From Burkholderiales bacterium (GTDB lineage: Bacteria > Pseudomonadota > Gammaproteobacteria > Burkholderiales > Burkholderiaceae_B), in NCBI GenBank assembly GCA_021300475.1, contig JAJTDO010000002.1, positions 1-64,000 of the forward strand: DNA of 64,000 nt, read 5' to 3'. Positions 10,683 to 54,368 of the stretch are shown piece after piece. A model generated the notes under the pieces. The model was given only the letters and a program-made list of their open reading frames with translations. It was not told where the DNA came from and searched no databases. Made by a program: the position numbers and the translations under genes. Numbering within the stretch: the first letter of the stretch is position 1; each line of letters starts with the position of its first letter.

Positions 10683-11503
10683 ATGCACAAGTTAAAACTC
10701 TATGCGGAACTGGTGCGACTGAATCGCCCCATCGGTATTTTGTTGTTGCTGTGGCCAACCCTCTGGGGGCTGTGGCTGGCCGCGGGTAAAACACCTGCAA
10801 GCCTGAACCTGTGGGTTTTTGTACTGGGTACCGTCTTGATGCGCTCTGCCGGTTGCGCTGTCAATGACTACGCAGACCGTCATTTCGACCTGCATGTAAA
10901 ACGCACAGCGCAAAGGCCTGTGACCAGTGGCCGGGTGTCACCCAGGGAGGCTTTGCTGGTGGCCGGCGCGCTGGCATTGTTGGCGGCTTTGTTGGTCTTG
11001 CTGCTTTCGCCATTGGTCTGGTTGCTGGCCATTCCGGCGGCATTTTTGGCGGCGAGCTATCCGTTCATGAAGCGTTTTTTTGCCATTCCACAGGCCTACC
11101 TTGGCATCTGTTTTGGTTTCGGCATTCCCATGGCCTATGCGGCCACCGTGAACAGCGTACCGCCCATGGCCTGGGCCTTGCTGTTGGCAAATGTGTTCTG
11201 GACCATCGCCTACGATACGGAATATGCCATGGTGGACCGTGAAGACGACTTGAAAATAGGCACAAGTACGATGTGCTGGCGGTCATGCTCTGCTATGCCT
11301 GCAGTCTGGGTTTGTTGGCCTGGGTGGCGTATCTGGAAGGCTTGGGTGTGGCTTTCTGGCCGGCATGGTGTTCAGCGGTTGGCATAGCGGCCTACCACTA
11401 CACGTTGATCAGGCACCGGGAACCCAGCCAGTGCTTCAAAGCCTTCTTGCACAACAATTGGCTGGGCGGTGCGGTGTTCGCGGGTTTTGCGCTGGGCGTC
11501 TAG
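10683..11503 (+). pseudogene. ubiA: 4-hydroxybenzoate octaprenyltransferase, broken by internal deletion
   Basis: UbiA attaches the polyprenyl tail to 4-hydroxybenzoate in ubiquinone synthesis, an integral membrane enzyme. The first frame (10683 to about 11262) reads cleanly through both Asp-rich motifs (NDYADRHFD and [16 protein letters not shown]). Expected next is a short stretch resembling IRTSALTLG before a KYD sequence; instead the sequence jumps straight to KYDVLAVM in another frame and continues intact to 11503. About 25 bases are missing near 11258-11264. Without them the first frame runs to a stop at 11387. Either a true pseudogene or an assembly or amplification error; the rest of the protein shows no decay. 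Its stop codon shares a CTAG with the proC stop. Confidence 0.88.
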
Positions 11504-12312
11504 CCCTTGCTTAACAATTCGCCGAGTTCAATGCTTCTTGCATTCGCTGCATTGGCGCCAGCCTGAATGTGGTGCGAGACTTGCCCTTGCAGCATCGCCT
11601 CCAGACCCGCTGCTGTGGTGCCGCCCTTGGAGGTGACCCGTTCCCTGAGTACGGAAAACGGTTCGTCGCTTTGGCAGGCCAGCTCTGCTGCACCCCGAAA
11701 TGTTTCGCTTACCAGGCTTCGTGCCTGCGCTGCATCAAACCCCAATGACAATGCTGCGTTTTCAAGGGCTTCCATGAACAGAAAAACATAACCGGGTCCG
11801 CTGCCGGAAATTGCGGTGGTGGGGTTCAGCATGGCTTCATTTTCCAACCAAACCACGCTGCCACAGGCCTCCAGTATGGTTTGCGCTTGTGCTTTGTCTG
11901 CGCTGTTGCAGGCTGTACTGGCAAAAACACCGCTCACGCCCATGCCCACCATGGCGGGCGTGTTGGGCATACTGCGAACAATTCGCGGATGCTGTTTTAG
12001 CCAGTCCGACAACAGCGTGATGGGCATGCCTGCAGCAATGCTGATGATCAGGCTGTTGGTCAGCGAGTCAGCCAATGGCGCCAAAGCTGCCTTCATTTGC
12101 TGTGGTTTGACTGCCAGTACGGCAACGTCCGGGGTGTAACCTTCCGGTAAAGTGTTGCTGGCGCCAACCCCCATTGCTGCAAATTTTTCTCTGGCAGCCT
12201 CCAGCAATTCAAGGACATGGATTTGCCCGGCGGCGATACCGTTTTTAAGCAGACCTTGCACAATGGCCAAGGCCATGTTTCCGCCACCAATAAAAAGCAG
12301 TGTTTGATTCAT
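11500..12312 (-). CDS. proC: Pyrroline-5-carboxylate reductase
   Basis: Last step of proline synthesis, NAD(P)H-dependent reduction of P5C. 270 residues from the ATG at 12312: Rossmann [28 protein letters not shown] and the C-terminal dimer domain with [14 protein letters not shown]. The open frame could be read 22 codons further upstream, but those residues fall over the yggS 3' end and are unlike the family. yggS lies directly upstream on the same strand, a very common pair. Confidence 0.96.
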
Positions 12313-12335
12313 GGTTTGTTTCTGTGATGGGTTAT

Positions 12336-13037
12336 TCAAGTTCGTGCGCCAAACAGTGCGCTTCCAATTCGTACGCAAGTGCTGCCGTGGGCAATGGCAG
12401 TTTCCAAATCTGCAGACATACCCATGGAAAGTGTGTCCATGCCCGGGTAGTTTGACTTCATTTTGTCAAACAAGGCTTTGAGTTGTTCAAACTCTTCTGC
12501 TTCCTTGCCAGGTTCGGGCAAGGTCATCAACCCCCTGAGTTTAAGTTGGGGCAGGCTGGCAACCAGCGCTGCCAATGCCTCAACATCTTGGGGGGCTGCA
12601 CCACTCTTGCTTTCTTCCGTGCTTAATTTTACCTGTAGACAGATGTTCAATGGGGCAAGCCCGGCGGGGCGTTGTTCAGCAAGACGCTGGGCAATTTTTT
12701 CCCGGTCTACTGTGTGTACCCAGTCAAAGTTCTCAGCAACCGGGCGGGTTTTATTGCTTTGCAATGGACCAATGAAATGCCAAGTCAAGCCGCTTAATCC
12801 CTGTTGCTTGAGAGAGGCGATTTTCTCAATGCCTTCCTGCACATAGTTTTCACCGAAATCGGTTTGTCCTGCCTGCGCCATCAGCGCGACATCGTGGGCT
12901 GGAAAGGTTTTGCTGACGGCCAGCAAGGCCACCGAGTTGCCGTGGCGATGGGAGGCGGCACAGGCTGTTTGAATTCTGTCTTTGACTTGGGTGAGGTTGC
13001 GTTGCAACCGTTGCAGTTCAGAGGCTTCTGGGTTCAT
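12336..13037 (-). CDS. yggS: YggS family pyridoxal phosphate homeostasis protein
   Basis: PLP-binding single-domain TIM-barrel protein that buffers cellular PLP; no enzymatic activity is established for the family. 233 residues with the PLP lysine in AVSKTFP at residue 43, FGENYVQE, WHFIGPLQSNK, and the C-terminal SMGMSADLETAIAHGSTCVRIGSALFG phosphate-binding signature. Ends 23 bases before proC, suggesting one transcript. Confidence 0.95.
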   Translation of the reverse strand: MNPEASELQRLQRNLTQVKDRIQTACAASHRHGNSVALLAVSKTFPAHDVALMAQAGQTDFGENYVQEGIEKIASLKQQGLSGLTWHFIGPLQSNKTRPVAENFDWVHTVDREKIAQRLAEQRPAGLAPLNICLQVKLSTEESKSGAAPQDVEALAALVASLPQLKLRGLMTLPEPGKEAEEFEQLKALFDKMKSNYPGMDTLSMGMSADLETAIAHGSTCVRIGSALFGART

Positions 13038-13171
13038 GGTTTGAGTGGCTTCTGATGGGTTTTACATACAAACCACAGCCTACGCCAATTTGACGGATTA
13101 CAAAAATCGCGCTGTCAGAGTTGCTGTGTTAATCTGCAAATGAAAATTGATACTCTAGAGACGGAGACACG

Positions 13172-13657
13172 ATGTCCTCATTTTTTGATTTTTCCACGAA
13201 AACCTTACAGGGTCAGGAATTTCCGTTTTCCAGTTTGAGCGGGAAGGTGGTGTTGGCGGTCAATACGGCCAGCAAATGCGGTTTCACCCACCAGTACAAA
13301 GGTCTGCAAGCCTTGTATGAGCAATACCAAGCCCAAGGGTTGGTGATTGTGGGCTTTCCCTGCAACCAGTTCGGCTCACAGGAACCCGGCGGTACCGCTG
13401 AAATTTCCGAGTTTTGTGAAATCAACTATGGCGTCAGTTTTCCATTGTCGGAAAAAATTGAGGTTAATGGTGCCAATGCCCACCCGGTGTACAAGTTTTT
13501 GACCAAGGAAGCCAAAGGGGTTCTGGGTACAGAATCCGTTAAATGGAATTTCACCAAGTTTCTGGTTGCAAAAGACGGTTCAGTTTTCAAGCGCTACGCA
13601 CCAACGACGTCTCCAAAAGACTTGGAAGACGACATTGCTGCGTTGCTGAAAGCCTGA
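13172..13657 (+). CDS. Glutathione peroxidase family thiol peroxidase
   Basis: Reduces peroxides with glutathione or thioredoxin; cytoplasmic, 161 residues. Thioredoxin-like fold with NTASKCGFTHQY, where Cys36 takes the place of selenocysteine, then GFPCNQFGSQEPG and the WNFTKFLV motif with the catalytic Trp and Asn. No signal peptide. GGAGA precedes the ATG by 5 bases. Stands alone between yggS and the rRNA methyltransferase gene. Confidence 0.93.
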   Translation: MSSFFDFSTKTLQGQEFPFSSLSGKVVLAVNTASKCGFTHQYKGLQALYEQYQAQGLVIVGFPCNQFGSQEPGGTAEISEFCEINYGVSFPLSEKIEVNGANAHPVYKFLTKEAKGVLGTESVKWNFTKFLVAKDGSVFKRYAPTTSPKDLEDDIAALLKA

Positions 13658-13690
13658 ACTCAGGCAGTGCAAGCGCCGACGGTGTGAATT

Positions 13691-14995
13691 TCACGCCTCG
13701 GCGGCATCGCCCGTATTTTCAGACCGGGGTCGGTAAGATCCACGGGCCAGAGGAAACTCGAAAAACCTGCAGTCCAGTCCACCGTTGAACAGCGGTGTCT
13801 TGCGCTTGGGCGATAGACCCAGCGCATGTCGCAAATCCAGATCTGCCGTCAGGCAATTGAATTTCCAGCCGGTAAACTTTTGCTTTAGCAAGGTGCCGAA
13901 TTCACCGAAAAGCGCTCGATAGGCCTCATTTTCTTCTGAATTTAAACCTTTCGCCTGCAAACGTTCGCCGTAGGGTGGATTCGTAATAATCAAGCCTGTT
14001 TCAGCCGTGGGCTCAACGGTTCTGGCGTCCCGCTGTTCAAAACGCAGGCGTCCGTCTTCCAGCAGCGCTTCCAACCCTGCCAATTTTGCATTGTGTTCTG
14101 CCAATTCAACCAGCAAACGGGTAATGTCGCTGCCGTACAAATTGAGCTGCATGACATTTTGCAGGCCGGTCTGGAAACGGGTGCGCGCTTCTTCCTGCAA
14201 AGCCCGGAAAGCGGTTGGGTCGTAGCCCTTTAGCTTTTCAAAGCCGAAGCGTCTGCCCAGTCCAGGGGCTTTGTCCACGGCTTTGCAAGCAGCTTCTATT
14301 AGTAAGGTGCCGCTGCCGCAAAAAGGATCCATCAGCGCGATGTCGGCATTCCACTGTGCGATATTGACCATGCCGGCAGCAAGGTTTTCTTTCAGTGGTG
14401 CGTTGCCTTTTTCTTGGCGCCAGCCGCGCTTGAAGAGATTTTCACCCGACAGATCAAGATAAACCGAGGTGTGGGTAGGGCCCAGTGCAGCCAGAATGCG
14501 TACATCGGGTTCGTCGATGCTGATGCTGGGTCTGCGGCCATTGATGTCCAGAAAATAATCACAGACGGCGTCTTTGACGCGCAATTGCAAAAACCGCGCA
14601 TTCGGAAGTTCAACGCCCAAGTTGTTGAGGTCGACGCGCAGCAGTTGCTTGTCTGAGAACCATTGCTGCCACTGCACTTTTTTAACCAGGCGGTAGAGTT
14701 GTTCGTCGTCGTTGCAGGCTTCGTGGGCCACGCGCAAGTAAATACGACCGGCCAGCGCTGACCAAAGGTTCATTTTTTGCAATGTCAGCCAGTCGGCGCG
14801 GAATTCCACGCCACCGCCCACGGCCTTGCCGCTTTTTGCGTCCAGGCCTTCAAGTTCGGCCAGCAGCAGGGCTTCCAGACCGCGGGGGCAACTGGCGAAA
14901 GCGGCAAATTCCTGATCGCGGATGTGCTGATCGCTGCGTTTTACGCTCAGTGTTTTTTTGGGGGTGTTTCTTGATGATTCGGTGTCGTAGGACAA
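13691..14995 (-). CDS. THUMP domain 23S rRNA methyltransferase, RlmL N-terminal type
   Basis: Probable 23S rRNA guanine N2-methyltransferase, corresponding to the N-terminal half of E. coli RlmKL (m2G2445). 434 residues: an N-terminal ferredoxin-like and THUMP domain (about residues 30-185), then a Rossmann methyltransferase domain with DPFCGSGT and the NPPYGERL catalytic motif. The K half of RlmKL is not fused here, normal for betaproteobacteria. Exact target base is inferred. Confidence 0.88.
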   Translation of the reverse strand: MSYDTESSRNTPKKTLSVKRSDQHIRDQEFAAFASCPRGLEALLLAELEGLDAKSGKAVGGGVEFRADWLTLQKMNLWSALAGRIYLRVAHEACNDDEQLYRLVKKVQWQQWFSDKQLLRVDLNNLGVELPNARFLQLRVKDAVCDYFLDINGRRPSISIDEPDVRILAALGPTHTSVYLDLSGENLFKRGWRQEKGNAPLKENLAAGMVNIAQWNADIALMDPFCGSGTLLIEAACKAVDKAPGLGRRFGFEKLKGYDPTAFRALQEEARTRFQTGLQNVMQLNLYGSDITRLLVELAEHNAKLAGLEALLEDGRLRFEQRDARTVEPTAETGLIITNPPYGERLQAKGLNSEENEAYRALFGEFGTLLKQKFTGWKFNCLTADLDLRHALGLSPKRKTPLFNGGLDCRFFEFPLARGSYRPRSENTGDAAEA

Positions 14996-15012
14996 GGCTC
15001 GGAACTCGCTGT

Positions 15013-15435
15013 TCAGAAAGGTTTTACAACGACCAAAATGATCGCAGCAAGCATGAGTATCACTGGCACTTCATTGAACCAACGATAAAACACATGACTT
15101 TTTTGATTTAATCCCAGCTCGAATTTTTTTAGTAATCGGCCACAAGCATGGTGATAGCCGAAAATCAGTACAACAATCAGAAGTTTGGCATGCATCCAGC
15201 CATTGCCCGGTCCTTTTCCAATACCGTAATACAGCCACAACAAAACCCCCAACACCGTGGCCGGCGCGGACAGAAGGGTCATGAAGCGGTAGAGCTTGCG
15301 AGCCATCTGCAACAGGCGCTTTTGTGCAGCAGGGTCTGTTTCCATCGCCAGATTGACATAAATGCGTGGCAAGTAAAACAAACCTGCAAACCACGAGGCG
15401 ACAAATAAAATATGAAAGGCTTTAACCCACAACAT
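15013..15435 (-). CDS. hemJ: CopD/HemJ family protoporphyrinogen oxidase
   Basis: Four-helix membrane protein of 140 residues that oxidises protoporphyrinogen IX in bacteria lacking HemG and HemY. The conserved His in the first helix (residue 8), the FYLPRIYVNLA segment and the WMHAKLLIVVLIFGYHHAC stretch with the family Lys are all present. ATG at 15435 gives the standard HemJ start; a TTG six codons upstream is less likely. Confidence 0.87.
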   Translation of the reverse strand: MLWVKAFHILFVASWFAGLFYLPRIYVNLAMETDPAAQKRLLQMARKLYRFMTLLSAPATVLGVLLWLYYGIGKGPGNGWMHAKLLIVVLIFGYHHACGRLLKKFELGLNQKSHVFYRWFNEVPVILMLAAIILVVVKPF

Positions 15436-15459
15436 AGAACTGCTCCAATGCAATTTGCA

Positions 15460-16719
15460 TTATTGACGAATTTCTCCATGGCCAAAGACCACGTACTTCA
15501 GGCTGGTCAGCCCGTCGAGTCCGACAGGTCCGCGGGCGTGGAATTTGTCTGTGGAAATTCCGATTTCCGCACCCAGCCCATATTCAAAACCATCGGCAAA
15601 CCGGGTCGATGCGTTGATCATGACGGAAGAAGAATCGACTTCGCGGATGAACTGCATGGCGCGGCTGTAGTTTTCCGTCACGATGCTGTCGGTGTGCTGT
15701 GAACTGTAGTGATTGATGTGTTCAATGGCGGCATCAACATCCGCGACGATGCGGATGGACAAAACAGGCGCCAGATATTCCGTTTTCCAGTCTTCTTCCG
15801 TGGCTTCAATTGCTTGTTTCAAAATACGGCGTGTGGCCTCGCAGCCTCTGAGTTCAACACCTTTTTTTGTATAGATGTCTGCCAGCGGGGGAAGCACAGC
15901 CGCTGCCACCGCGCTCGCAACCAACAGTGTTTCCATGGTGTTGCAGGTGCCGTAGCGGTGCGTTTTTGCGTTGTCTGCAATGCGGATGGCTTTTTCCAGA
16001 TCTGCGTCGCTGTCAATGTAGACATGGCAGATGCCGTCGAGGTGCTTGATGACGGGCACTCTGGCTTCTGCTGAAATGCGTTCTATCAGACCTTTGCCGC
16101 CTCTGGGCACAATGACATCCACATATTCCGGGCTGGTGACCATCGCACCGACAACGGCGCGGTCTGTGGTGTCAATCACTTGCACCGCAGTTTCCGGAAG
16201 CCCGGCTGCGGCCAATCCTTGACCGACCAGCAAAGCCAGTGCGCGGTTGCATTCAATGGCTTCTGAGCCGCCTCTGAGTATGGCCGCATTGCCGGATTTG
16301 ATGCACAGACCTGCTGCGTCTGCAGTGACATTGGGTCTGGCTTCATAAATGATGCCAATGACGCCCAACGGCACCCGCATCTGCCCGATCTGTATGCCGC
16401 TTGGGCGAATGCGCATGTTGGAGATTTCGCCGATCGGATCTGGCAATTGCGCGATTTGCTCCAAGCCCTGCGCCATGGTTTCAATGGCTTTGGCAGACAG
16501 GCTAAGGCGGTCAAGCAGGGCTGGCTCAAGCTGGTTGGCACGGGCACGCGCCATGTCGAGCTCATTGGCGGCTGTCAGTTGGGCAGCGTTTTCACGGATT
16601 GCCTGCGCAATGTTGAGCAAGGCCTGATTTTTTGCCGCGGTGCTGGCCTTTGCCATGACACGGGAAGCGCTTCTGGCAGCTTTTCCGAGGGTGTTGAAGT
16701 AGTCTTTGAGGTTGCTCAT
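15460..16719 (-). CDS. proA: Gamma-glutamyl phosphate reductase
   Basis: Second step of proline synthesis, NADPH-dependent reduction of glutamyl phosphate. 419 residues of the aldehyde dehydrogenase superfamily, with [32 protein letters not shown], the catalytic Cys in [14 protein letters not shown], and [23 protein letters not shown] at the C-terminus. ATG at 16719 overlaps the holA stop by four bases, indicating coupling. It ends the leuS-lptE-holA-proA run. Confidence 0.97.
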
Positions 16720-18289: not shown

Positions 18290-18346
18290 GCGAAACTCCT
18301 TGGTTTTTTTGTGCACTGGATTGAGCAGGAAATCCTGTAGGTCATA

Positions 18347-21058
<2,712 letters not shown>

Positions 21059-21170
21059 TCAAGGCTTGACGGCCTGACTGTCAGCATCCGCTTAACACGC
21101 TGAAAAAGCGGGTTTTCCTGTGGTTTTTCACAGAAGGAGTAAAATCAAGACTCTTTTTTGTGGGGTGCCT

Positions 21171-23192
21171 GTGTCTCTTCTCGATTTTCTGAACCCGGAG
21201 CAGTTGGCTGCCGTTACGTTGCCGCGCGAAAGCGCCCTTATTCTTGCCGGCGCAGGCAGCGGTAAAACCAAGGTGCTGACCACGCGAATTGCCTGGTTGA
21301 TACAAACCGGGCAGGTTGGACCGTCCGGCATCCTCGCGGTCACCTTCACCAACAAGGCGGCCAAGGAAATGATGCACCGCCTGGAAACCCTGTTGCCCAT
21401 CAACACGCGGGGTATGTGGGTTGGCACTTTCCACGGTTTGTGCAACCGCATGTTGCGCGCCCATTTCCGCGATGCGAACCTGCCGCAGACTTTTCAGATT
21501 CTCGACACCTCAGATCAACTGTCTGCCATCAAGCGACTCTATAAAAATATTTCCGCCGACGACGACAAATTTCCACCCAAGCAAACCCAGCATTTCATCA
21601 ATTCCTCCAAAGAACAGGGATTGAGGCCTTCAGGGCTGGATGGCAAAGATCCCCTCACCCGCAAAATGATCGAGTTCTACGACTTGTATCAGGCACAATG
21701 CGACCGTGAGGGCGTGGTGGATTTCCCTGAACTGCTGCTGCGCTGTTTTGAATTGCTGCAACGCCACCCAGCCATCGCAAATCATTACTGCGAACGCTTC
21801 CGCTATGTTCTCGTCGATGAATTCCAGGACACCAACCCCTTGCAGTACGCTTGGCTGAAACGTCTGGCAGGTCCGCAGGGTTGCATGTTTGCCGTCGGTG
21901 ACGATGACCAGTCCATTTACGCTTTCAGAGGCGCACGCGTGGCCAACATGGCTGAATTTGAACGCGATTATCGGGTTCAGCACCGCATCAAGCTAGAACA
22001 GAATTACCGCTCTGTGGGCCATGTCCTGAATGCCGCCAACCACCTGATTTCCCACAACAGGGCCCGTCTGGGTAAAAACCTGTGGACGCAGACGGGGCAC
22101 GGCGAACAGCTTCGCGTGGCCGAGTCCAACACTGATCTGGCCGAGGCGCAGTGGTTGCTGGAGGAAGTGAAGTCGCTGACCTCGGAAGGTTATGCCAATG
22201 CAGACGTTGCCATTCTTTACCGGTCCAACGCGCAGTCGCGGGTTATAGAACAAGCCTTGTTTGCTGCTGGTGTTCCTTACCGCGTTTATGGCGGTTTGCG
22301 GTTTTTTGAACGTGCCGAGGTCAAGCATGCACTGTCATATCTCCGCTTGCTGGAAAATGCCGATGACGACACCTCTTTTATGCGGGTAGTCAATTTCCCG
22401 ACCCGCGGCATCGGTGCGCGGACCCTTGAAATGCTGCAGGATGCGTCTCGCCGTCATGGTCAGTCTTTGTACCGCAGCGTCGGTCATGTAACCGGCAAGG
22501 GCGGCACTTCTCTGGCGGCCTTTGTGCAACTGATAGAAAGAATGCGCTTTGAATCACGCGGTTTGTCCTTGCCTGAAATCACTGCAAAAGTGAATCAGGA
22601 GTCCGGCTTGCTCGACCATTACCAAAACGAGCGGGAAGGTGAGGAGCGCATTGAAAACTTGAAGGAGTTGGTCAATGCCGCCGCCGCCTTCGTAAACGCA
22701 GAAGGTTATGGCATTGAAGCCGCGGCCACCGAAGTGTCCGGAGAGGAAACCCAGGCGCAGATTCAAACGCCACTGGCCGGATTTTTGTCTCATGCGTCTT
22801 TGGAAGCAGGCGACAATCAAGCCCAACAGGGGCAGGATGCCGTTCAACTCATGCTGAACGGACAAACCCGTTATTGCCTGCGTTCTCGCTTCTTATCTGA
22901 ATTGCCTGACGACTCCGTGCGTTGGTTGGCGCCGCCCAAGCCCTCCGTAGTGAATCAGGCGTGGGACAACCGTTCTGCTGCTTGGTCTCAGGCCAAGGCC
23001 AGTGCTGCCGTCAATCAAAACCGTGCATCCTGGCCGTATAAAATTGGGCAATCGGTTGCGCATCCGCGGTTTGGTTCGGGTGTTGTGGTGAGTTATGAGG
23101 GGCAGGGCGATGACCTTCGCGTGCAAATCAATTTCGGACGCGAAGGCATGAAATGGCTGGTAGTGGCTTTGGCTAAACTGCAGGCGGCTTGA
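21171..23192 (+). pseudogene. uvrD: UvrD-type DNA helicase lacking motifs V and VI
   Basis: Superfamily 1A 3'-5' helicase used in nucleotide excision and mismatch repair. GTG at 21171 gives the family start (LLDFLNPEQLAAV). Visible motifs: AGAGSGKT (Walker A), FTNKAAKEM, VDEFQDTN, GDDDQSIYAFRGA, EQNYRS, and a C-terminal Tudor-like segment (HPRFGSGVVV). After QDAVQLM (to about 22853) the protein jumps to LNGQTRYCLRSRF, skipping about 60 residues that in the family contain motif V (TVHxAKGLEF) and motif VI (VAxTRAR). The loss is in frame, so a protein would be made but should not hydrolyse ATP productively. Both expected edges can carry CATG, suggesting microhomology. Error versus real deletion cannot be decided here. 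Confidence 0.87.
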
Positions 23193-23202
23193 GTCCTTGC
23201 AA

Positions 23203-24032: not shown

Positions 24033-24040
24033 TGAATCAG

Positions 24041-25009: not shown

Positions 25010-25012
25010 GGG

Positions 25013-30783: not shown

Positions 30784-31509
30784 TTAATACGCTTCGGGTT
30801 CCGGCTTTTTTTTGGCAGTCACCCATGAAGACAGGGTGCCACACAAGATAATAAGACAGATGCCCGCGAATGCTAATGGATCGATTCTTTCGTGCCAAAT
30901 CGTTTCACCCAAAAGAACAGAAAACAGCACAGTTGCATATTGTAACGAGGCGGAAAGCCAAGTGGAACCTCGGCTGAATGCTCTCGTCATTGCCAGTTGT
31001 CCGGCCGCACCTGTCAGGCCGATGCCAAGCAGCAGCGCCAGCGCGCCGGTGCTTTGCGGCAACACTTCAAGCCCTTGGAACAGGCATGCCAACGCGCCGG
31101 TCAAGGTGGAGGCCAGAGAAAAGAAAAACACGGTTCGCCATTCGGGCTCGCCTTGGGCACCCAGAGAGCGTTGCGTTGTCCTGCCCATAAAGCAAACCAG
31201 AATTACAGCAATGAACAGCGGGGATGTGTAGTTAAGCGTTGTAGCCGTGGCCAAGGGCAGGTGTTGCAGGGCGTAAAACCCGCTCCACATGGCAATCATG
31301 CCAAAACCGTTTCTGCGCAAATGCAGCAAGGCATTGCTGTTGAACAGGGTTTTTTTACTCAGGAAAATCCAGAGTCCTAGCAGGGCGAGGCTGGGCATGC
31401 CACGAAACAGCACAATTTGACCCAGGCTCTGAGCGGGAGAAGCCAGCTTGATGAGCGCGCCCATGGCGGCAAACATCAGGCTGGCAAGTAGCATCCATAG
31501 TCCTTGCAT
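30784..31509 (-). pseudogene. EamA/DMT family transporter with in-frame internal deletion
   Basis: Drug/metabolite transporter superfamily membrane protein. The 241-residue frame begins with a clean first EamA repeat (MLLASLMFAAMGALIKLAS, then HLPLATATTLNYTSPLFIAV) and has a clean second repeat from GAQGEPEWRTVFFFSL to GTLSSWV. Family members are about 285-300 residues; here the end of repeat one and the first helix of repeat two, about 45-55 residues, are absent near 31161-31181, where CFMGRTTQRS runs straight into LGAQGEPEW. In frame, but two or so membrane helices are lost, so topology would be wrong. Same type of lesion as in uvrD. Substrate unknown. Confidence 0.72.
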
Positions 31510-33894: not shown

Positions 33895-34791
33895 ATGTCC
33901 GGGTCTCAGGATCAATTAAGTCATTGGATTGAATCCAGAAAGTCTCTATTGGAGCTGGCTGTCGAACGGCGTTTCCAGCATGTCAGGCCTGTCAGTCCGG
34001 TTCTGCACGAAGCCATGGTGTATGCCTGCGCGGGTGGCGGCAAGCGGATGCGTGGCCTGCTGGTGCTGGCCAGTGCACATTGTCTTGGCGCCTCCGAAGA
34101 GGCTGCGCTGCCTGCTGCCTGTGCCATTGAGGCCATGCACGCCTATTCCTTGATTCATGACGACCTGCCCTGCATGGACGACGATGACTTGCGTCGCGGC
34201 AAGCCGACCTGCCACAAAGTTTATGGCGAGGCGTTGGCGCTTCTGGCCGGTGATGCATTGCAGACGCTGGCATTCGAGTGGTTGGGGCAGGCTGATTCAA
34301 GCGAGTCAATTCGTTTCAGGCAAATGCAGGTGCTGGCTGAAGCGGCCGGTTCTCAAGGCATGGCTGGGGGGCAGGCGCTGGACTTGCTCAACGTCAACAA
34401 ATCCATGACGCTGGAGTCGTTAAAGCAAATGCACGCCTGTAAAACCGGCGCGCTTTTTAAAGCCAGTGTGCTGCTGGGCGGTTTGTCTTCAACGGCGGCG
34501 ACCTCAGAGCAATTGCAGGCCTTGACTGCTTACGCAGCTGCGCTGGGTCTGGCTTTTCAGGTGGTGGATGATATTTTGGATGTGGAAACCGACACCGCAG
34601 TGCTGGGTAAAACGGCTGGAAAAGATGCGCTGGCCAACAAGCCAACCATGGTGAGTCTGTTGGGTCTTGAGTCAGCCAAACATCTGGCCAAAGAATTGGG
34701 TGAAACGGCGCAAGTGTCGTTGTTGCCTCTGGGGCATTCGGCCTGGGTATTGCAGGGAATCATTGATCAGGTGTTAAAGCGTCGCTCATGA
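33895..34791 (+). CDS. ispA: Farnesyl diphosphate synthase
   Basis: Condenses IPP with DMAPP and GPP to make FPP for quinone and undecaprenyl chains. 298 residues, all-helical prenyltransferase fold with GGGKRMRG, the first Asp-rich motif [14 protein letters not shown] near residue 87, and the second, VVDDILD, near residue 222. The ATG is preceded by AAAGAAG. Its stop overlaps the dxs start by four bases (ATGA), so the two are coupled. Confidence 0.97.
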
Positions 34792-36595
34792 ACAAACTAT
34801 TGGATCAAATTAACAGCAGTGCCGATTTGCGTCGTCTGAGCCGTTTGCAGTTGCCCGCGCTGGCCAAGGAGTTGCGTGAATTCGTTTTGCAAAGCGTCTC
34901 CAAAACCGGCGGCCACTTGTCGTCGAATCTGGGTACAGTGGAGCTGACATTGGCATTGCATTACGTGTTCAACACGCCCGACGACCGGATTGTCTGGGAT
35001 GTCGGTCATCAAACCTACCCCCATAAAATTTTGACGGGCCGCAGGGATCGCATGCCCAGTCTTCGTCAATATGAGGGCATTTCCGGCTTTCCGCGCCGCG
35101 TTGAATCGGAATACGATGCCTTTGGTACTGCCCATTCAAGCACCAGTATTTCTGCTGCGTTAGGAATGGCGGTGGCATCCCGTCAGTTGGGTATTAACCG
35201 CAAGCACATTGCCGTGATCGGCGATGGTGCAATGTCAGCGGGCATGGCGTTTGAGGCGTTGAACAATGCCGGTGTTACTCCCGATGTTGATCTGCTGGTC
35301 ATCCTCAACGACAACGACATGTCGATTTCGCCACCCGTCGGTGCGCTCAACAAATATCTGGCCCGCCTGATGTCAGGTCGGTTGATGAACAGCGCCAAAC
35401 AAATGGGCAAAGATTTGCTCGGCGGTGTACCACCCTTGTATGAGTTGGCCCACCGTCTTGAAGAGCATGTAAAAGGCATGGTGACGCCAGCCACGCTGTT
35501 TGAGGAATTCGGTTTTAATTACTACGGCCCCATTGATGGTCACGACCTTGATGCCTTGCTGCCAACGCTTCAAAATCTCAGAACCATGCCAAGGCGGCCA
35601 AACCCAGCTACACTCAAATTTTCGGTCAGTGGATTTGTGACATGGCCCGGTCTGATCAACGTTTGATGGGCATTACACCCGCCATGCGTGAGGGTTCGGG
35701 TTTGGTGGCCTTTGAGCGGCAATTCCCCAAGCGTTATTTCGATGTGGGTATTGCAGAACAGCATGCGGTCACGTTTGCTGCAGGCATCGCTTGCGAAGGC
35801 ATGAAACCGGTGGTTGCAATTTACTCGACCTTCCTGCAGCGTGCCTACGATCAACTCATCCATGACGTGGCATTGCAGAATCTCGATGTTACGTTCGCAA
35901 TCGACCGTGCCGGCTTGGTTGGGGCAGACGGTGCCACCCATGCAGGCAACTATGACATTGCATTTTTACGCTGCATTCCGAACATGGTAATTGCAACGCC
36001 ATCCAATGAACCGGAGTGCAGGGCATTGCTCAATACAGCCTACCACTATAAGGGGCCTGCCAGCGTTCGGTACCCCAGAGGATCTGGTTTTGGTGTGGAC
36101 GCAGGCACCAGCTTGGAAGCTTTGCCTTTGGGCAAAGGTGTGGTGTTGCGTGAATCCAAACGGGTGGGCTCAGCAGTAGCAGTGTTAGGGTTCGGAACTT
36201 TAGTGGGTGTCGTGGGGTCTGTATGTGAGGATCTTGATCTCAGTCTGGTTGATATGCGGTTTGTAAAGCCGTTGGATGAAGAGTTGATTCTCCAGATGGC
36301 CAGAACGCATCAGGCCTTGGTTACCTTGGAAGATGCCTGTCTGATGGGTGGAGCGGGTGCAGCCGTTTTGGAGTTCTTGCAGTCCAGAGACATCAACATT
36401 CCCGTGCTTTCCTTGGGGTTGCCAGATGAATTCATTGATCATGGCGATCCTGCTTTATTAATGTCGCTGCATGGGTTGGATGCCAAAGGCATTTCCCAGA
36501 GCATTACGCAGCGTTTCGGGGCTTTGTTGTCTGATACAGATAACGGCCAACCTGGCTCGGTTCACCGGATTGGTGGCAAAGCAGCCTCAGCTTGA
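34788..36595 (+). pseudogene. dxs: 1-deoxy-D-xylulose-5-phosphate synthase, broken by internal deletion
   Basis: First enzyme of the MEP isoprenoid pathway (thiamine diphosphate dependent). The N-terminal half is intact to [20 protein letters not shown], including [30 protein letters not shown] and the [15 protein letters not shown] cofactor motif. Near 35585-35598 the frame breaks: KGPQFLHV through GKFDP and about 45 residues in all are missing, and the text resumes in another frame at [16 protein letters not shown], then runs intact ([36 protein letters not shown]) to 36595. The lost part is about 130 bases. dxs is essential in organisms with only this pathway, which argues for artefact. 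A second copy elsewhere is the alternative. The first frame stops at 35666. Confidence 0.9.
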
Positions 36596-38977: not shown

Positions 38978-38985
38978 CCCACTCT

Positions 38986-40548: not shown

Positions 40549-42324
40549 CACGCTGCCTTCCCTGCGCGGGTCGGCGACACCCAGCCAGCCCTCTGGTGTG
40601 CGTTGTATCCAGTGAACGCCGCTGGTCTGCGGGATGACACTGACATTCAGATTGTCAGTGGCTTCCCCCGCCGGCAGGCTCTTTTTCAGGTTTTGCGCAA
40701 AGTCTGCTGCATGCGCGCCCCGTTCAAGGTCCAGACGGTTTTCCCTCAACACCACATGCCCCACAGACACCGCAGCCGACGGTTGCGTGTTGCCCCACCA
40801 ATTCGCCATTAAACGGGAGGCAATGAACGCGGGAATTTGAGCGCCCCCCGGAGAGCCGATAACGCTGACCACCCGCATGGGTTCGGTGTTGGACAGCACG
40901 ATGGTGGGGGCCATGGAGCTGCGTGGCCGTTTGCCAGCCTCAACCTGGTTGGGCGTTTTTACCTTGGAGTCTGAGGGTTTCAAATCAAAGTCTGTCAGTT
41001 GATTGTTCAATAAAAAACCATTGACCATGATGCGTGAACCAAATTGATCTTCGATGGATGAGGTGAGGGCAACCGCATTGCCTTGCGCATCGACAATTGA
41101 AAGGTGGGTGGTGGAAGGGCGCTCTTCAGAATTCAAGCGTTGCGCCAATGAAAATTCTGTCAGCCGTTGTTTCAGGTAAGGACGGCTGATCAGTTTCTGC
41201 GTATTTACTTCCACCAGATCGGGGTCGCCTACAAAACGCGCCCTGTCTTCATAGGCCAGCCTAGATGCTTTAAGCCAGGCAGACAATTGCTCCGGTTTCC
41301 AGCGCACGAGCCCGGCAGTGTCCGTTTGCGTCATGTTGGTTTTTTTGCCCGCCAGTTGTATTTCCAGCAATTGCAGCATCTGCAAAACTGCGATGCCTCC
41401 GGCAGAAGGCGGTGGCATGCCGCAAACTTTGTTGTCCATGACCACAGCACAAATTGGAGCCCGTTCGACAGCCCTGTACTGGCTGAAGTCGCCGGGCCGC
41501 AAGGAGGATTTTTCGCCGGTTTTTACGCTGATGGCCTTGATGATCTGTTGTGGAAACGTACCTTTGTAAAATCCGTTGGCGCCTGTGTTGGCGATGGTTT
41601 TCAAAGTGTTGGCCAAGGCCGGATTGCGAAGAAAATAGCCGGCTTCCACTGCATTTTCAGCAGGGTAGTACAACGCAGCGGCATGCGGATCTTCCTTGAG
41701 CAGCGCATCGTTTTTCAACAAGGCATGCAGACGCTCAGAGACAAAAAAACCGTTCTCTGCTTTTTGCGCAGCCGGCAGCATCAGCGATTTCCACGCCAGT
41801 TTTCCATGTTGCCTGTGCGCCAGTTCCAGCATGGCCAACAGCCCGGGCACACCCACAGCCTTGCCACGCCGAACAATGTCGTAGAAGGCTTGTGGATTGC
41901 CCTCGGCATCTAGAAAATCGTCGGCCAAGGTGGCCAAAGGCGCTGTTTCCCGCCCATCGTAGGCTTTCAAGACCTGGCTTTTCTGATCCCAAACCATCAT
42001 GAAACCGCCCCCTCCAAGCCCTGAAGATTGCGGCTCCACCAAATTGAGCATCATTTGTGCTGCAATTGCAGCGTCGACCGCATGCCCTCCTTGTTTCAGT
42101 ACAAGTGCGGCGGTCTCCGTGGCGTAACGGTTTGCAGTGACGGCCATCCACTGCTGGCCGGTTTCGGCCTCAACGGCCTTGTAGCCCCGAGCAATGGAGG
42201 TGGGAGCTTCCGGTTGCAACGGTGCGGATTGGGTAGCGGGTGCCAAAGCGGCGCTCGCCAGCAACAGGGGCAAAAAAAAGCAGCCCGATGCGGCTGCCTT
42301 TTTAAAAATCAGGACAGTTTTCAC
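40525..42324 (-). CDS. ggt: Gamma-glutamyltransferase
   Basis: Periplasmic N-terminal nucleophile hydrolase that cleaves glutathione and transfers glutamyl groups. 599 residues with a signal peptide (hydrophobic core about residues 12-28), [32 protein letters not shown] in the large subunit, and the autocleavage site before Thr in [10 protein letters not shown], followed by [11 protein letters not shown]. Starts with GTG overlapping the hppA stop (GTGA), so it appears translationally coupled to hppA. Confidence 0.95.
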
Positions 42325-44318
42325 AGAATGGGAACAATCATTAAAGCAACAATGTTAATAATTTTAATCAAAGGATTGACTGCAGGCCCAGCGGTGTCTT
42401 TGTAAGGGTCGCCCACCGTATCGCCAGTGACGGCTGCCTTGTGTGCATCGGAGCCTTTGCCACCGTGGTGACCTTCTTCAATGTATTTTTTTGCATTGTC
42501 CCACGCGCCGCCCCCCGTTGTCATTGAGATGGCCACGAACAGTCCCGTCACAATGGTGCCCATTAAAACGCCGCCCAAGGCCGCTGGCCCCAACAGCAAA
42601 CCCACTGCAATCGGTACCAGCACAGGCAGTATCGAGGGAATCATCATTTCGCGGATGGCCGCGGTGGTCAGCATGTCTACGGCGCGCGAATAATCTGGTT
42701 TTGCCGTGCCTTCCATGATGCCGGGGATTTCCCTGAACTGCCTGCGAACCTCTTCCACAACGGCACCGGCTGCCCGGCCAACAGCCTCCATGGCCATGGC
42801 GCCAAACAAGAATGGAATCAAGCCGCCGATAAACAGACCGATGATCACCTCATGGTTTGACAAGTCAAACGTGACCACCTTGTTGGCTCTTTCCAGTGCG
42901 TGCGTGTAGTCGGCAAACAGCACCAAAGCGGCCAACCCCGCCGAGCCGATGGCATAGCCTTTGGTAACGGCTTTTGTGGTGTTGCCCACTGCATCCAATG
43001 GGTCGGTGATGTTGCGGACCGACTCCGGCAAGTTGGCCATTTCAGCAATACCGCCTGCATTGTCGGTGATGGGGCCGTAGGCATCCAGCGCCACCACAAT
43101 GCCGGTCAAAGACAGCATGGCTGTCGCGGCAATGGCGATGCCGTAGATACCGGCCAGCCAGAATGAACTGTAAATGGCGGCGCAAACGGCCAGCACTGGC
43201 CAAGCGCAGGCCTTCATGCTCACAGCAATGCCGGCAATGATGTTGGTGGCATGCCCGGTGGTTGAGGCTTGCGCCACATACCGTACCGGTGCGTATTCAG
43301 TGGCCGTGTAGTATTCCGTGATGACCACCAGCAGGGCAGTCAGTACCAAGCCCACGATAGATGCGCCATACAGGCGAAGAACGGCGTTGCCACCCGCCAA
43401 CGCATCGTTTGGAATCATCCAGGCCGTGATGGGATAGAACAACACCAGCGAAATTCCCCCTGTCACCATCAAGCCCCTGTACAAGGCTTTCATGATGCGT
43501 TCACCTTCCCTGACCCTCACTGCCCCGGCACCGATGACCGATGCAATAATGGAAACCCCGCCCAACAAAAGCGGGTACACCACCGCCTCCAAGGGAGCTT
43601 TTGCAACCGTGAGTGCGCCTAGAATCATGGTGGCGATCAATGTCACAGCGTAAGTCTCAAACAGGTCGGCAGCCATGCCTGCACAGTCGCCGACGTTATC
43701 ACCTACATTGTCTGCAAGCACTGCAGGGTTTCGCGGGTCGTCTTCCGGAATGCCGGCTTCAACCTTGCCGACCAGATCCGCCCCCACATCGGCACCCTTG
43801 GTGAAAATACCGCCACCGAGTCGCGCGAAAATGGAAATCAGGGAGCCGCCAAAGCCCAAACCGACGAGTGGGTGCAGCACATCTGTCAGATTCACGGTTT
43901 TTCCCAAACCGTGGGGGGCTGAAAACAGCAAAACCCCGAAGTAGCCGGCCACGCCAAGCAATCCCAGGCCCACCACCAGCATGCCGGTAATTGCGCCACC
44001 CCTGAATGCAACATCCAAGGCCTGCTGCAACCCTTGTGTGGCTGCCTGCGCGGTTCTCACGTTGGCTCTCACTGAGACATTCATGCCGATGTAACCAGCC
44101 GCCCCTGAGAGCACTGAACCAACCAGAAATCCGATGGCAGTGGGCCACCCCAAACCAGGAATAAGGGCAATTGCGATGAAGAGAACGGTTCCCACCAGGC
44201 CGATGGCCTTGTATTGGCGGTTGAGATAGGCTTGAGCGCCTTGTTGAATGGCGGCTGCGATTTCCCGCATTCGCTCGCTGCCGGTTGGCAGGCGGTTAAT
44301 CCATAGACTGGACAGCAC
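42321..44318 (-). CDS. hppA: Membrane proton-translocating pyrophosphatase, 5' end damaged
   Basis: Couples pyrophosphate hydrolysis to ion transport. Conserved parts include the [28 protein letters not shown]-like substrate segment, and [12 protein letters not shown], whose Lys and Thr mark the K+-independent, H+-pumping type. The body reads cleanly for 665 residues, but homologues begin about 20 residues earlier. Upstream of the GTG at 44318 the frame stays open and encodes CGVVAVLYG, the expected first helix, then turns into unlike sequence near 44345 with no start codon before a stop at 44376-44378. The true start seems to have been lost. Lies downstream of adk. Confidence 0.88.
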
Positions 44319-44350
44319 GCCGTATAAAACAGCGACAACCCCACACGGGC

Positions 44351-44370
44351 CTGTCGCGCATTGCGCGACA
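44351..44370. repeat. Perfect 9-bp palindrome at the damaged hppA 5' end
   Basis: TGTCGCGCA and TGCGCGACA are separated by a single base, a near-perfect snap-back. It sits exactly between the adk stop and the point where hppA homology begins. No T-run follows on either strand, so it is not a standard terminator. Confidence 0.6.
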
Positions 44371-44400
44371 CTGGGTCATTTCATGTTTTTCGGCCCTGAC

Positions 44401-45967
<1,567 letters not shown>

Positions 45968-45980
45968 TGGTGAACCTGTA

Positions 45981-47654: not shown

Positions 47655-47669
47655 GGTTACCCAAGCGCC

Positions 47670-48754: not shown

Positions 48755-49333
48755 ATGGAACACGCATTGCCTGCTTTGCCCTACGCGATGGATGCTTTGG
48801 CCCCCCACATTTCAGCTGAAACCTTGGAATACCATTACGGCAAGCATCACCAGACGTATGTCACCAATTTGAATAACCTGATCAAGGGCACCGACTTTGA
48901 AAGCGCAAGCCTGGAAGACATCGTGCGCAAATCTTCCGGTGGCGTGTTTAACAATGCAGCCCAGGTTTGGAACCACACCTTTTATTGGAACAGCCTGTCA
49001 CCCAAGGCCAGCGGTGCACCCAGCGGTGCGCTGGCAGATGCCATCAATGCAAAGTGGGGCAGTTTCGATGCTTTCAAGGAAGCTTTCACGAAAAGCGCCG
49101 TTGGCAACTTCGGTTCCAGCTGGACTTGGCTGGTGAAAAAAGCCGACGGCAGCCTCGACATTGTCAATACCAGCAATGCAGCCACACCGCTGACAGGAAC
49201 AGACAAGCCTTTGCTGACTTGCGACCTGTGGGAGCACGCTTATTACATCGATTACCGCAATGCACGTCCGAAGTACATTGAGACATTCTGGAAACTGGCC
49301 AATTGGGACTTCGCAGGCGCAAACTTCGCGTAA
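48755..49333 (+). CDS. sodB: Superoxide dismutase, iron type
   Basis: Dismutates superoxide in the cytoplasm. 192 residues with metal ligands in [18 protein letters not shown], and [34 protein letters not shown] and length fit the Fe-dependent SodB group. No signal peptide. AAGAGGA precedes the ATG by 7 bases. Ends at a bidirectional terminator shared with the DUF192 gene. Confidence 0.97.
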
Positions 49334-49351
49334 GCACCGCAGCAGTTTCAA

Positions 49352-49388
49352 AAAAGCGCACCTGAATTTTTCAGGTGCGTTTTTTTTT
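49352..49388. terminator. Bidirectional terminator between sodB and DUF192 gene
   Basis: 10-bp stem, 49357-49366 with 49370-49379, 3-base loop, A-run on the left and eight T's on the right. Confidence 0.92.
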
Positions 49389-49842
49389 AGCGTGCCCGCA
49401 ATGCCGTAATGCCCTTGATGTTGGAGCCCTCTCCAACGCCTTTTTGCTTGAACCAGTTCTGCCGCATTTCAAGCGCATATTTTGCAGGGCCTTTTGCACA
49501 GTGGCTGACTTCGCTCAACGGCTCCATGTTCGCCACATTTAAAATATTCCCCTGCTCGTCAACAAAAGCCACAGACAGCGGTACCAAGGTATTTTTCATC
49601 CACATACAGTGGTGATTGGGTTGGTCAAACACGAAAACCATGCCATCGTTGTCCACAATCTGCTTGCGATACATCAGCCCCTGCATACGTTTGGTTTGGT
49701 CATCGGCCACCTCTGCTTGCACAACATGCATCCCCATCTGAAGCACTGTTTTTGAAAATTCTGTTGCAAAAACGCGACTGCTCAGCAAGTGAAGCGATAA
49801 AAAAACGATGTACGTCAGTGAAGAGCAAGCATTTAATTTCAT
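49387..49842 (-). CDS. DUF192 family exported protein
   Basis: 151 residues with an N-terminal signal peptide (hydrophobic about residues 10-25, cleavage likely after VFA), then the DUF192 fold: VEVADDQTKRMQGLMYR-like stretch, DGMVFVFDQPNHHCMWMKNTLVPLSVAFVD, and YALEMRQNWFKQKGVGEG. Periplasmic, function unknown. Stands alone, divergent from icd. Confidence 0.88.
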   Translation of the reverse strand: MKLNACSSLTYIVFLSLHLLSSRVFATEFSKTVLQMGMHVVQAEVADDQTKRMQGLMYRKQIVDNDGMVFVFDQPNHHCMWMKNTLVPLSVAFVDEQGNILNVANMEPLSEVSHCAKGPAKYALEMRQNWFKQKGVGEGSNIKGITALRAR

Positions 49843-49968
49843 TGTTCTGGTTTTCCTACAGGTTCGTTCTTAGAAGCAAAAGACAAGGTTTCAAACACAA
49901 GGGTACAATAGGGTAGAGAGCGTCCTCTAATTTGAGACCACATCCAATACCCATAAATGGAGAGGCTA

Positions 49969-51216
49969 ATGTATCAACACATCAAAGTTCCAAGCACCGG
50001 CGACAAAATCAAGGTGCGCCCAGATTTTACTTTGGATATTTCCGACACCCCCATCATTCCCTTCATTGAGGGAGATGGTACAGGTTTAGACATTACCCCC
50101 GTTGCTATCAAGGTCGTTGATGCGGCTGTCGCCAAAGCCTATAGTGGCAAGAGAAAAATCAGCTGGATGGAGATTTTCGCAGGTGAAAAATCCACCAAAA
50201 TTTACGGCCCGGATGTCTGGTTGCCTGAAGAAACCCTGCATGCCCTGAAGGAGTATGTGGTTTCCCTGAAAGGCCCGCTCACCACGCCAGTCGGTGGCGG
50301 TATCCGCTCCATCAACGTGGCGATGCGTCAGGAACTTGACCTGTACGTGTGTTTGCGCCCCGTCCGCTATTTCAAGGGCGTACCCAGCCCTGTGCGCGAG
50401 CCTGAAAAAACCGACATGGTGATTTTCCGTGAGAACTCGGAAGATATCTATGCAGGCATTGAATACGAAGCAGAGAGTGAAAAAGCCAAAAAGCTCATTC
50501 ATTTCCTGCGCACCGAAATGGGCGCCACTAAAATCCGCTTTCCGGAAACCTCGGGCATCGGCATCAAACCGATCTCCAAGGATGGCACTGAGCGCCTGTT
50601 CCGCAAGGCACTGCAATACGCGATCGACAACAAACGCAAATCCGTGACCATTGTCCACAAGGGCAACATCATGAAGTACACCGAAGGTGCGTTTGCGAAG
50701 TGGGCTTATGCATTGGCGCAAAGAGAATTTGGTGCCGAGATGCTTGACGGCGGCCCATGGATGAAAATCAAGGCTCCCCATGGCGACATCGTGGTCAAAG
50801 ACTCCATCGCCGATGCTTTCCTGCAGCAGATTCTCTTGCGTCCTGCCGAGTATGACGTCATTGCAACCATGAACCTCAACGGCGACTACATCTCTGACGC
50901 TTTGGCGGCTCAGGTGGGCGGTATTGGTATTGCACCCGGCGCCAACTTGTCAGACTCCATCGCCTTGTTTGAAGCCACGCATGGCACAGCGCCAAAGTAT
51001 GCAGGAAAAGATTACGTGAACCCGGGTTCCGAAATCCTGTCTGCGGAAATGATGCTGCGCCACATGGGATGGATAGAGGCGGCTGACCTCATTCTTTCCT
51101 CAATGGAGGCTTCCATCGCTTCCAAGCGCGTCACTTACGATTTTGCGCGTTTGATGCCTGGTTCCACTCAAGTGAGTTGCTCGGGTTTCGGCGATGTCAT
51201 GATAGAACACATGTAA
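49969..51216 (+). CDS. icd: Isocitrate dehydrogenase, NADP-dependent
   Basis: TCA-cycle oxidative decarboxylation of isocitrate. 415 residues of the E. coli Icd type: [32 protein letters not shown] with the phosphorylatable Ser, [16 protein letters not shown], and a C-terminal [24 protein letters not shown] region. The ATG at 49969 has GGAGAGG 4 bases upstream; the ATG at 49957 overlaps that site and is unlikely. A strong terminator follows. Confidence 0.97.
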
Positions 51217-51240
51217 GCGCATCAGTTTTGCCGCACCATG

Positions 51241-51270
51241 AAAAAAGCCAGCTTTCGAGCTGGCTTTTTT
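51241..51270. terminator. Terminator after icd
   Basis: 8-bp stem 51246-51253 with 51258-51265 closed by a TTCG tetraloop, flanked by six A's and six T's; can act for icd and for the convergent cold-shock gene. Confidence 0.93.
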
Positions 51271-51295
51271 GTGTCTCCCCTGTATGTTGATTTAA

Positions 51296-51517
51296 TCAGG
51301 AGTTGCTGTCCGAACCGCTTTTCTGAATGTTTTGTGCTTGTCGTCCTTTGGGGCCGTCGGCCACGTCAAAGGTAACTTTCATGCCTTCCTTCAGGCTTTT
51401 GAATCCTGTGGATTGAATGGCTGAAAAATGAGCGAACAATTCGCCGCCACCATCGTCAGGGGTTATGAAGCCAAAACCCTTGGCGTCGTTGAACCATTTC
51501 ACTGTACCGCTCGCCAT
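51296..51517 (-). CDS. Cold-shock domain protein
   Basis: 73-residue single-strand nucleic-acid chaperone: one OB-fold domain with [24 protein letters not shown] (RNP1) and [10 protein letters not shown] (RNP2; Leu-Phe-Ala in place of the usual Val-Phe-Val). AAGGAG lies 8 bases before the ATG at 51517. The leader upstream is long and can fold, as in cspA-type genes whose translation responds to temperature; whether this one is cold-inducible cannot be told. Confidence 0.95.
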
Positions 51518-51822
51518 TTTTATTTCTCCTTCAAAAGTTTTGCTTAGAGGCTGCAAGGCGCAAAAAAGCGCTGGCAGAGCCTTCAATTAATTCACCCACA
51601 GGGTGAGTTCATATTGTTTTAATTGTCTGCATCGGCGTCAACAATACAAATAAGTCATTTATCAAAAATCATCAAAATATGACCTTTATTCATGATTTCC
51701 TGCAGAATTTCTGAACTCTTTTTGACTTTATGTCTCAATCATTAGAAGGCTTAAACTTCTGCGGTAACGCCATGTGAAACACCCGGCTTGCAGGTTCTTG
51801 TGAAGTGATTAGAATGGGGTTT
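51518..51822. other. 305-base spacer between cold-shock gene and clpS
   Basis: No gene. On the minus strand it holds the cold-shock leader with two small hairpins (51558-51571, GCGC arms; 51592-51606, TCACCC/GGGTGA) and a candidate promoter at 51613-51641 (TTGACG, 17-base spacer, AACAAT). On the plus strand it must contain the clpS promoter, which I cannot place with confidence. Confidence 0.5.
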
Positions 51823-52094
51823 ATGAGCCAGGAAAATAGCAACAACACATCAACAGTTTTGGAGAAGCAGACTGAGAAGGCTGCTCCTCCACCCATGTTT
51901 CAAGTCGTCTTGTTGAACGACGATTACACCCCTATGGAATTTGTGGTTATCGTTTTGCAAAAGTTTTTTGGCAAAAGCCGAGAACAGGCGACCCAGATTA
52001 TGCTAAAAGTACACAGGGACGGACGGGGCGTCTGTGGAGTTTATCCGAGGGACATTGCTGTGACGAAAGTCGAGCAGGTTTGCAGTTTTTCACG
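51823..52094 (+). pseudogene. clpS: ATP-dependent Clp protease adaptor ClpS, 3' end missing
   Basis: ClpS delivers N-end-rule substrates to ClpAP. The first ~90 residues are intact: [34 protein letters not shown] with the substrate-pocket Asn-Asp, then [29 protein letters not shown]. After that Arg (about 52094) the expected last ~15 codons and stop are missing and the reading frame enters clpA coding sequence out of frame, ending only at 52272 as an unlike 60-residue tail. The deletion also removed the clpA start. Confidence 0.87.
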
Positions 52095-54368
52095 TCCAGG
52101 CAACAACGTCATGAATTCATCACCGTCGAGCACTTGCTGCTCGCGTTGCTGGACAACCCCTCTGCGGCTGAAGTTCTCAGATCCTGCGCCTGCAATATCG
52201 ATGATTTGCGCCGCAACCTGCAAAACTTTATCCGCGACAACACGCCCGTCATTTCCGGGCAGGACGAGGTAGATACCCAACCTACCTTGGGCTTCCAGCG
52301 CGTCATACAGCGCGCCATCATGCATGTTCAATCAACATCGAACGGCAAGAAGGAAGTCACGGGCGCCAACGTACTGGTTGCCATTTTTGGCGAAAAAGAC
52401 TCGCATGCCGTGTACTACCTGCACCAGCAGGGCATTACACGCCTTGATGTGGTGAACTTCATTTCCCACGGCATCACCAAGACTCCGCAAACGCCTACGC
52501 CCAAGCAAGAAAGTCCGCAGGGTTCAGACTCTGGCGAGCCGGAGCAGGAATCTGCCGCCAGCAGCGACAAACAGTCGCCTCTGGATCAATACACCCAAAA
52601 CCTGAACGCTTCTGCTCGTGAAGGCAAGATCGATCCTCTGATCGGCCGCGAGCCGGAAGTCGAACGGGTCATTCAAGTGCTTTGCCGCCGCAGGAAAAAC
52701 AATCCCCTGTTGGTGGGTGAAGCCGGCGTTGGAAAAACGGCCATCGCAGAAGGTCTGGCGTGGCGCATTGTCAAAGGTGATGTGCCGGAGGTACTTGAGT
52801 CTGCTCAGGTTTACTCCTTGGACATGGGCGCCTTGCTTGCTGGAACCAAGTACCGTGGCGATTTCGAGCAACGCTTGAAAGCGGTGCTAAAGCAACTGAA
52901 ATCCAATCCTCACTCGGTGCTGTTCATTGATGAAATCCACACCCTGATCGGTGCGGGTTCTGCGTCTGGCGGCACCTTGGATGCCTCAAACCTGCTCAAG
53001 CCGGCTTTGTCTTCCGGTCAGTTGAAGTGCATTGGGGCCACCACTTTCAATGAATACCGTGGCATCTTTGAAAAAGACCATGCGCTGTCACGCCGTTTCC
53101 AGAAAATCGATGTCAATGAGCCCACCGTGGAACAGACCATTGAAATTCTGCGCGGCCTGAAGAGCCGGTTCGAAGAGCACCATGGTGTCAAATACTCCAG
53201 CGCGGCCATTCAGGCGGCGGCTGAGTTGTCCGCAAAGTTCATTAATGACCGTCACTTGCCTGACAAGGCCATTGACGTCATCGATGAGGCCGGTGCTGCC
53301 CAGCGCATTCTGCCGAAATCCAAGCAGAAGAAAACCATCGGCAAGAACGAGATAGAAGACATTGTGTCCAAAATCGCGCGCATTCCGCCACAGTCGGTGT
53401 CCACCGACGACCGCAACAAACTGGCAACGCTTGAGCGTGATCTGAAGTCCACCGTGTTTGGACAAGATCCTTCCATTGAGATATTGGCCGCTGCCATCAA
53501 GATGTCCCGTTCCGGTCTGGGCAAGCCTGACAAGCCTATCGGCTCATTCCTTTTCTCCGGCCCCACAGGCGTAGGAAAAACCGAGGTGGCCAAGCAACTT
53601 GCATTCACCTTGGGTGTGGAACTGATTCGTTTTGACATGTCCGAATACATGGAACGTCATGCGGTGTCGCGTCTGATTGGTGCACCTCCGGGCTATGTTG
53701 GTTTCGATCAAGGCGGTTTGCTGACAGAGGCGGTGACCAAAAAGCCCCATTGTGTTTTGCTGCTGGACGAAATTGAAAAAGCCCATCCGGACATCTACAA
53801 CATTTTGCTGCAGGTCATGGACCATGGCACGCTGACAGACAACAACGGACGCAAAGCGGATTTCCGCAATGTCATTATTATCATGACCACCAATGCCGGT
53901 GCAGAGGCCTTGACCAAGCGGTCAATCGGCTTCACAGAGGCCAAGGTGCAGGGTGATGAAATGGCGGACATCAAGCGGATGTTCACTCCCGAGTTCCGCA
54001 ACCGTCTGGACGCGATTGTTTCTTTCGCAGCCTTGGACGAGAGCATTATTCTTCGAGTGGTAGACAAATTCCTGATGGCCTTGGAAGAGCAGTTGCATGA
54101 GAAGAAAGTCGATGCAATTTTCACTGACGAACTTCGCAAGTATCTGGGCAAGAAGGGTTTCGATCCGTTGATGGGTGCGCGCCCGATGCAGCGTCTTATT
54201 CAGGACGTCATTCGCAAAGCCCTGGCTGACGAGTTGCTGTTTGGTCGTCTGACCAGCGGTGGCAAAGTTACAGTGGATGTGGATGACAAAGACACCGTCA
54301 CCCTGAATTTTGACAATGGCACCACACCTCCGCAGACCACGCCTTCTGACGAGGTTGTTGTGGAGTGA
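52080..54368 (+). pseudogene. clpA: ATP-dependent Clp protease ATPase subunit ClpA, N-terminus truncated
   Basis: Hexameric AAA+ unfoldase partner of ClpP. From [23 protein letters not shown] on, everything is intact: N-domain, first ATPase module ([21 protein letters not shown]), second module (GPTGVGKTEVAK, LLLDEIEKAH) and the C-terminal sensor region. The first ~18 family residues (M-AQELEVSLHMAFVEA type) and the start codon are gone, replaced by clpS sequence; translation from a chance ATG at 52080 would give MQFFTS then the true sequence. I infer a loss of about 100-150 bases across the clpS/clpA junction. Confidence 0.9.

Follow-up and report, generated by a model that had tools for sequence, protein, structure and literature searches.

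Six genes within 41 kb of a draft Burkholderiales genome each lack one block of sequence that related genomes retain. We consider that the observation most likely reflects a fault of the assembly and that the organism itself has no such feature; on the sequence comparisons reported here, the six blocks are probably absent from the assembled sequence only, at gaps that would have been closed too short.

The window (the whole stretch of DNA analyzed, 64,000 bases) is the first part of contig C87 (100,357 bases), which belongs to a draft assembly (G000) of 118 contigs that total 2,732,592 bases, with a completeness of 97.4%. The genome was placed in the Burkholderiales from gene content and matches, with Cupriavidus, Pandoraea and the like as its closest leuS relatives (~72% identity). 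From the assembly, 406 kb (the window plus 342 kb elsewhere) was compared with 2.0 Mb of a complete relative (G005); the sole same-genus genome compared (G001) is 66% complete. At window positions 54492-56158, a cytochrome c adjoins a flavocytochrome c sulfide dehydrogenase flavoprotein, an arrangement that, going by the Pfam names, suggests sulfide oxidation. The junctions at which sequence is missing are as follows.

11263-11270, plus strand: ubiA junction (gene 10683-11503), 25 nt missing, with a frameshift
22850-22853, plus strand: uvrD junction (gene 21120-23192), ~186 nt missing, in frame, with a shared ATG
31160-31185, minus strand: EamA-family transporter junction (gene 30784-31509), 138-141 nt missing, in frame
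35588-35592, plus strand: dxs junction (gene 34788 to 36595 in two frames), 124 nt missing, with a frameshift
44345-44371, minus strand: hppA 5' junction (gene 42321-44318 as listed), start codon, upstream site and ~10 codons missing
52080-52095, plus strand: clpS/clpA junction, lacking the end of clpS, the spacer and the start of clpA

Four of the lesions are internal to genes. A tblastn search with the G001 UbiA protein matched residues 2-197 and then 204-282, 25 nt short, and nucleotide alignment to G001 gave the same 25-nt loss (11264-11270); the evidence for this lesion comes chiefly from G001, and G005 supports it more weakly. In the first ubiA open reading frame (ORF), the TIGR01474 match goes no further than positions 1-197 of 282, 0 to 1 base is common to both sides of the junction, and the frame past the lesion is open up to its stop (11501-11503). 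The uvrD block is present in 20/20 relatives, measuring 186 nt in 18 of them, 195 nt in G017 and 213 nt in G001, and the window gene is 186 nt shorter than that of G007. The best stretch of TIGR01075 in uvrD ends at 552 of 715; the PcrA_UvrD_tudor domain picks up again at residue 642. In the transporter, 46-47 residues are absent (47 by comparison with G001), and the junction is the meeting point of two-piece matches from G001 and seven other relatives. At the cut-off applied, 11 of 15 relatives had a match to the gene, and their open frames measure 286-363, compared with 270 in the window. Compared with G002, dxs is 124 nt short; TIGR00204 matches at 3-264 in its first ORF and at 323-613 of 616 in its second, and the second half is open for ~950 nt. 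A single ORF crosses the dxs site in 7/7 relatives aligned (L143-L149), and matches in seven more relatives lie in open frames of 620-680 residues; G001 was uninformative for dxs, as its contig begins within the gene.

The remaining two lesions lie at gene ends. The clpS sequence tracks its relatives to ~52080 and clpA picks up at ~52080-52095, with the NF000672 match on the clpS side ending at 92 of 104 and the NF008263 match on the clpA side starting at 12 of 758. The hppA gene was present in 4/15 relatives, and all four have an ATG ~10 codons ahead of the first conserved stretch kept here and a purine-rich site ahead of that ATG. The window hppA has neither; its first in-frame start is a GTG at 44318, and the NF001951 match starts at model position 23. 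The hppA junction adjoins a perfect 8-bp inverted repeat with a 3-base loop (44352-44370), which occurs once in the 406 kb.

An initial annotation, made from the letters alone, had proposed that each of five sites lacks one block between clean flanks, and that the hppA 5' end looks similarly affected. The relatives' sequences bear this out at 6/6 sites, hppA included (4/4 relatives with the gene), and the flanks align well. The annotation had named short versions in relatives as evidence that would speak against a loss; these were looked for among the relatives searched, and none was seen. It had further judged that this was not ordinary decay, and that view holds: the frame is shifted in 2/4 internal lesions (ubiA and dxs), yet the frames downstream are still open, so these lesions must have arisen very recently if they exist at all. 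Its proposals of short identical bases were borne out in part. At the uvrD junction, ATG is supported (Met on both sides in G001) and CATG is only possible; at the dxs junction, GCCAA has partial support, for about 3 bases, from the residues of one relative. Elsewhere in the window, 30 further ORFs were scanned; 28/30 had a Pfam match at 1e-8, with no sign of a missing block, several matches being partial by nature.

Comparison with G005 gave 128 ortholog-like pairs, 40 in the window and 88 in the 342 kb elsewhere. Internal breaks were found in 4/40 window pairs (ubiA, uvrD, EamA and dxs), where against G005 the uvrD break appears as an alignment ending at the junction and the ubiA break is clear only with G001; no housekeeping gene among the 88 pairs elsewhere showed such a break. 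Fisher's test gave p = 0.0086 (4/40 versus 0/88), or p = 0.033 if a transposase is counted (1/88); because the window was picked for its breaks, these values are inflated, and the result only suggests that the lesions are clustered locally. The transposase, an IS605-type OrfB remnant at C25:36064-36716 (L199), is disrupted by a frame break and by a stop codon within the gene and is the one such case seen in the 342 kb outside the window. Other flagged pairs were set aside: one at 29.3 kb on C25 has a 13-residue gap, yet the gene reads whole, two on C79 have normal starts, and about seven more elsewhere differ at gene ends only or are tandem paralogues. Gaps of 8 residues against G005 were also seen in the window at 7558 (recG-like) and 60305 (ileS-like), the latter with well-conserved flanks. 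Two other approaches were set aside. The 80 loci of a leuS scan gave no control, being without the other genes in synteny, and at most one locus besides the window matched any of five references; a reference-free frame-switch model recovered only 18 of 48 frame-shifting deletions that had been planted, and its 13 candidates, all unverified, entered no count.

Under the assembly explanation, the contig would have been assembled from smaller segments, six of whose gaps (~25 to 200 bases each, unsequenced) would have been shortened when they were closed during scaffolding or gap filling, so that the flanks would have been joined with little or no shared sequence. It is by inference that we regard the six junctions as joins of this kind and assign them to such a step; the absence of the blocks and the state of the assembly are observed. 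The 406 kb holds just two runs of N, both off C87: 18 N at C25:31903-31920 (L199), with an identical 25-base sequence on either side, and 19 N at C47:52125-52143 (L205), where the sequence repeated on either side is 14 bases long and the run lies just inside a putative purM gene. Flanked by these repeats, the runs are true overlaps written as gaps, with sizes off by 33-43 bases, and the assembly is thus a scaffolded draft with wrong gap sizes. No N run was found on C87. Overlapping ends alone were left as N, and with none on C87 this would fit a step that closed the other gaps.

Plain repeat or k-mer collapse was rejected, as the junctions share just 0 to ~5 bases, too few for a de Bruijn join. 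Duplicated contig ends written without N were also considered and rejected; apart from the two N-run sites, the short-distance direct repeats of the 406 kb look like native tandem repeats, and G005 has 399 such repeats in 2 Mb, so their presence or absence is weak evidence. According to two reports (PMC3446322, PMC4237348), the sequence that gap closers insert can fall short of the true gap or exceed it, and short overlap requirements lead to spurious joins. By default, GapFiller requires an overlap of 10 bases and tolerates a deviation of 50 from the estimated length (PMC3446322); since the junction overlaps are below 10 and the missing lengths exceed the tolerance, GapFiller at its defaults is not the cause. 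False gap closure as described in those reports (SOAPdenovo and GapFiller, PMC3446322; Pilon, PMC4237348) resembles the present case in clean short loss, intact flanks and a draft with estimated gaps. The present case differs in being denser (six in 41 kb of one contig) and in overlaps below the defaults named. For three of the six sites (ubiA, uvrD and EamA), the missing segments as they stand in G001 were searched for extreme GC content or folding energy and were ordinary, so sequence hidden from sequencing by GC or hairpins is not supported at those three. Hard-to-sequence segments are a common cause of gaps and not a strict requirement. Failure of coverage at the missing segments, and the clustering on one contig, are left unexplained by an assembly artefact.

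The initial annotation had favored template switching or collapse during amplification or assembly. An artefact remains the leading explanation, and its assembly half fits better, given a scaffolded draft with badly sized gaps. We regard it as improbable that chimeric molecules from multiple displacement amplification (MDA) or PCR template switching entered the library and were assembled. A completeness of 97% is unlike a single-cell genome and counts against amplification. The uvrD junction does share at least ATG and the dxs junction perhaps 3 bases, but at least 3 shared bases at 1/3 readable junctions is compatible with chance (~5% each, by our own arithmetic). In a study of MDA (PMC1855051), chimeras are likewise abrupt joins, some with short shared bases, and priming often involved at least 2 complementary bases (76.8%). 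The same study reports 406/475 chimeras as inverted (85%) and 69/475 as direct, with 11 direct joins of <10 kb. All six junctions here are direct, in order and over distances below ~0.3 kb, a class that is rare in that set (11 of at most 475, with all direct joins below 10 kb counted); as MDA chimeras are mostly inverted, template switching during MDA is disfavored.

It is quite improbable, in our judgment, that the deletions are real and that six genes, all inside 41 kb, were recently stripped of blocks in the sequenced cells or in the dominant strain. The local cluster would speak for it, though with p values inflated as noted, as would possible alternative routes in the genome. An intact HMG-CoA reductase match (403 bits) lies at C12:1339-2448, and two other UbiA-family genes lie on C15. 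With the reductase, the genome may have a mevalonate route, and in view of this enzyme and the UbiA-family genes the loss of either dxs or ubiA cannot be taken as lethal; dxs may be dispensable. The reductase weakens the argument from the essentiality of dxs in the initial annotation. The HMG-CoA reductase is itself unexpected for this group; its role could be catabolic or biosynthetic, or the contig that carries it could be a stray one. Set against real loss are the two frame-shifting lesions in normally important genes with no decay after them, the DXP reductoisomerase of the MEP pathway, which is kept elsewhere in the genome, and the single-copy state of dxs, uvrD and clpA, for each of which a second copy was searched for in the assembly and not found. 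Recent gene-inactivating deletions in a living lineage are alike in combining frame-shifting and in-frame coding losses; the window differs in showing no decay beyond the lesions, with nothing comparable in the 88 pairs elsewhere. The narrower proposal, in which a local and very recent deletion process hit six genes in 41 kb of one replicon and left the rest of the genome untouched, we hold to be highly unlikely, and the unusual deletion process raised in the initial annotation gained no positive support.

That natural length variation between species was misread as deletion is scarcely credible: in-frame gaps of at least 10 residues are not rare (12 were listed when our own ORFs were compared with G005, 143 pairs), so that in-frame gaps alone need care, but 0/12 had both flanks at 50% identity or above. 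At the present sites, by contrast, conserved flanks surround the lesions, 20/20 relatives have the uvrD block and two lesions shift the frame.

A literature search on truncated genes in metagenome-assembled genomes found none. Real deletions, produced by a clustered process in genes that normally matter and followed by no decay, would be something new. If the lesions are an artefact of assembly, as seems likely, calls of gene loss or auxotrophy based on dxs, ubiA, uvrD or clpA would be false for this organism despite 97% completeness.
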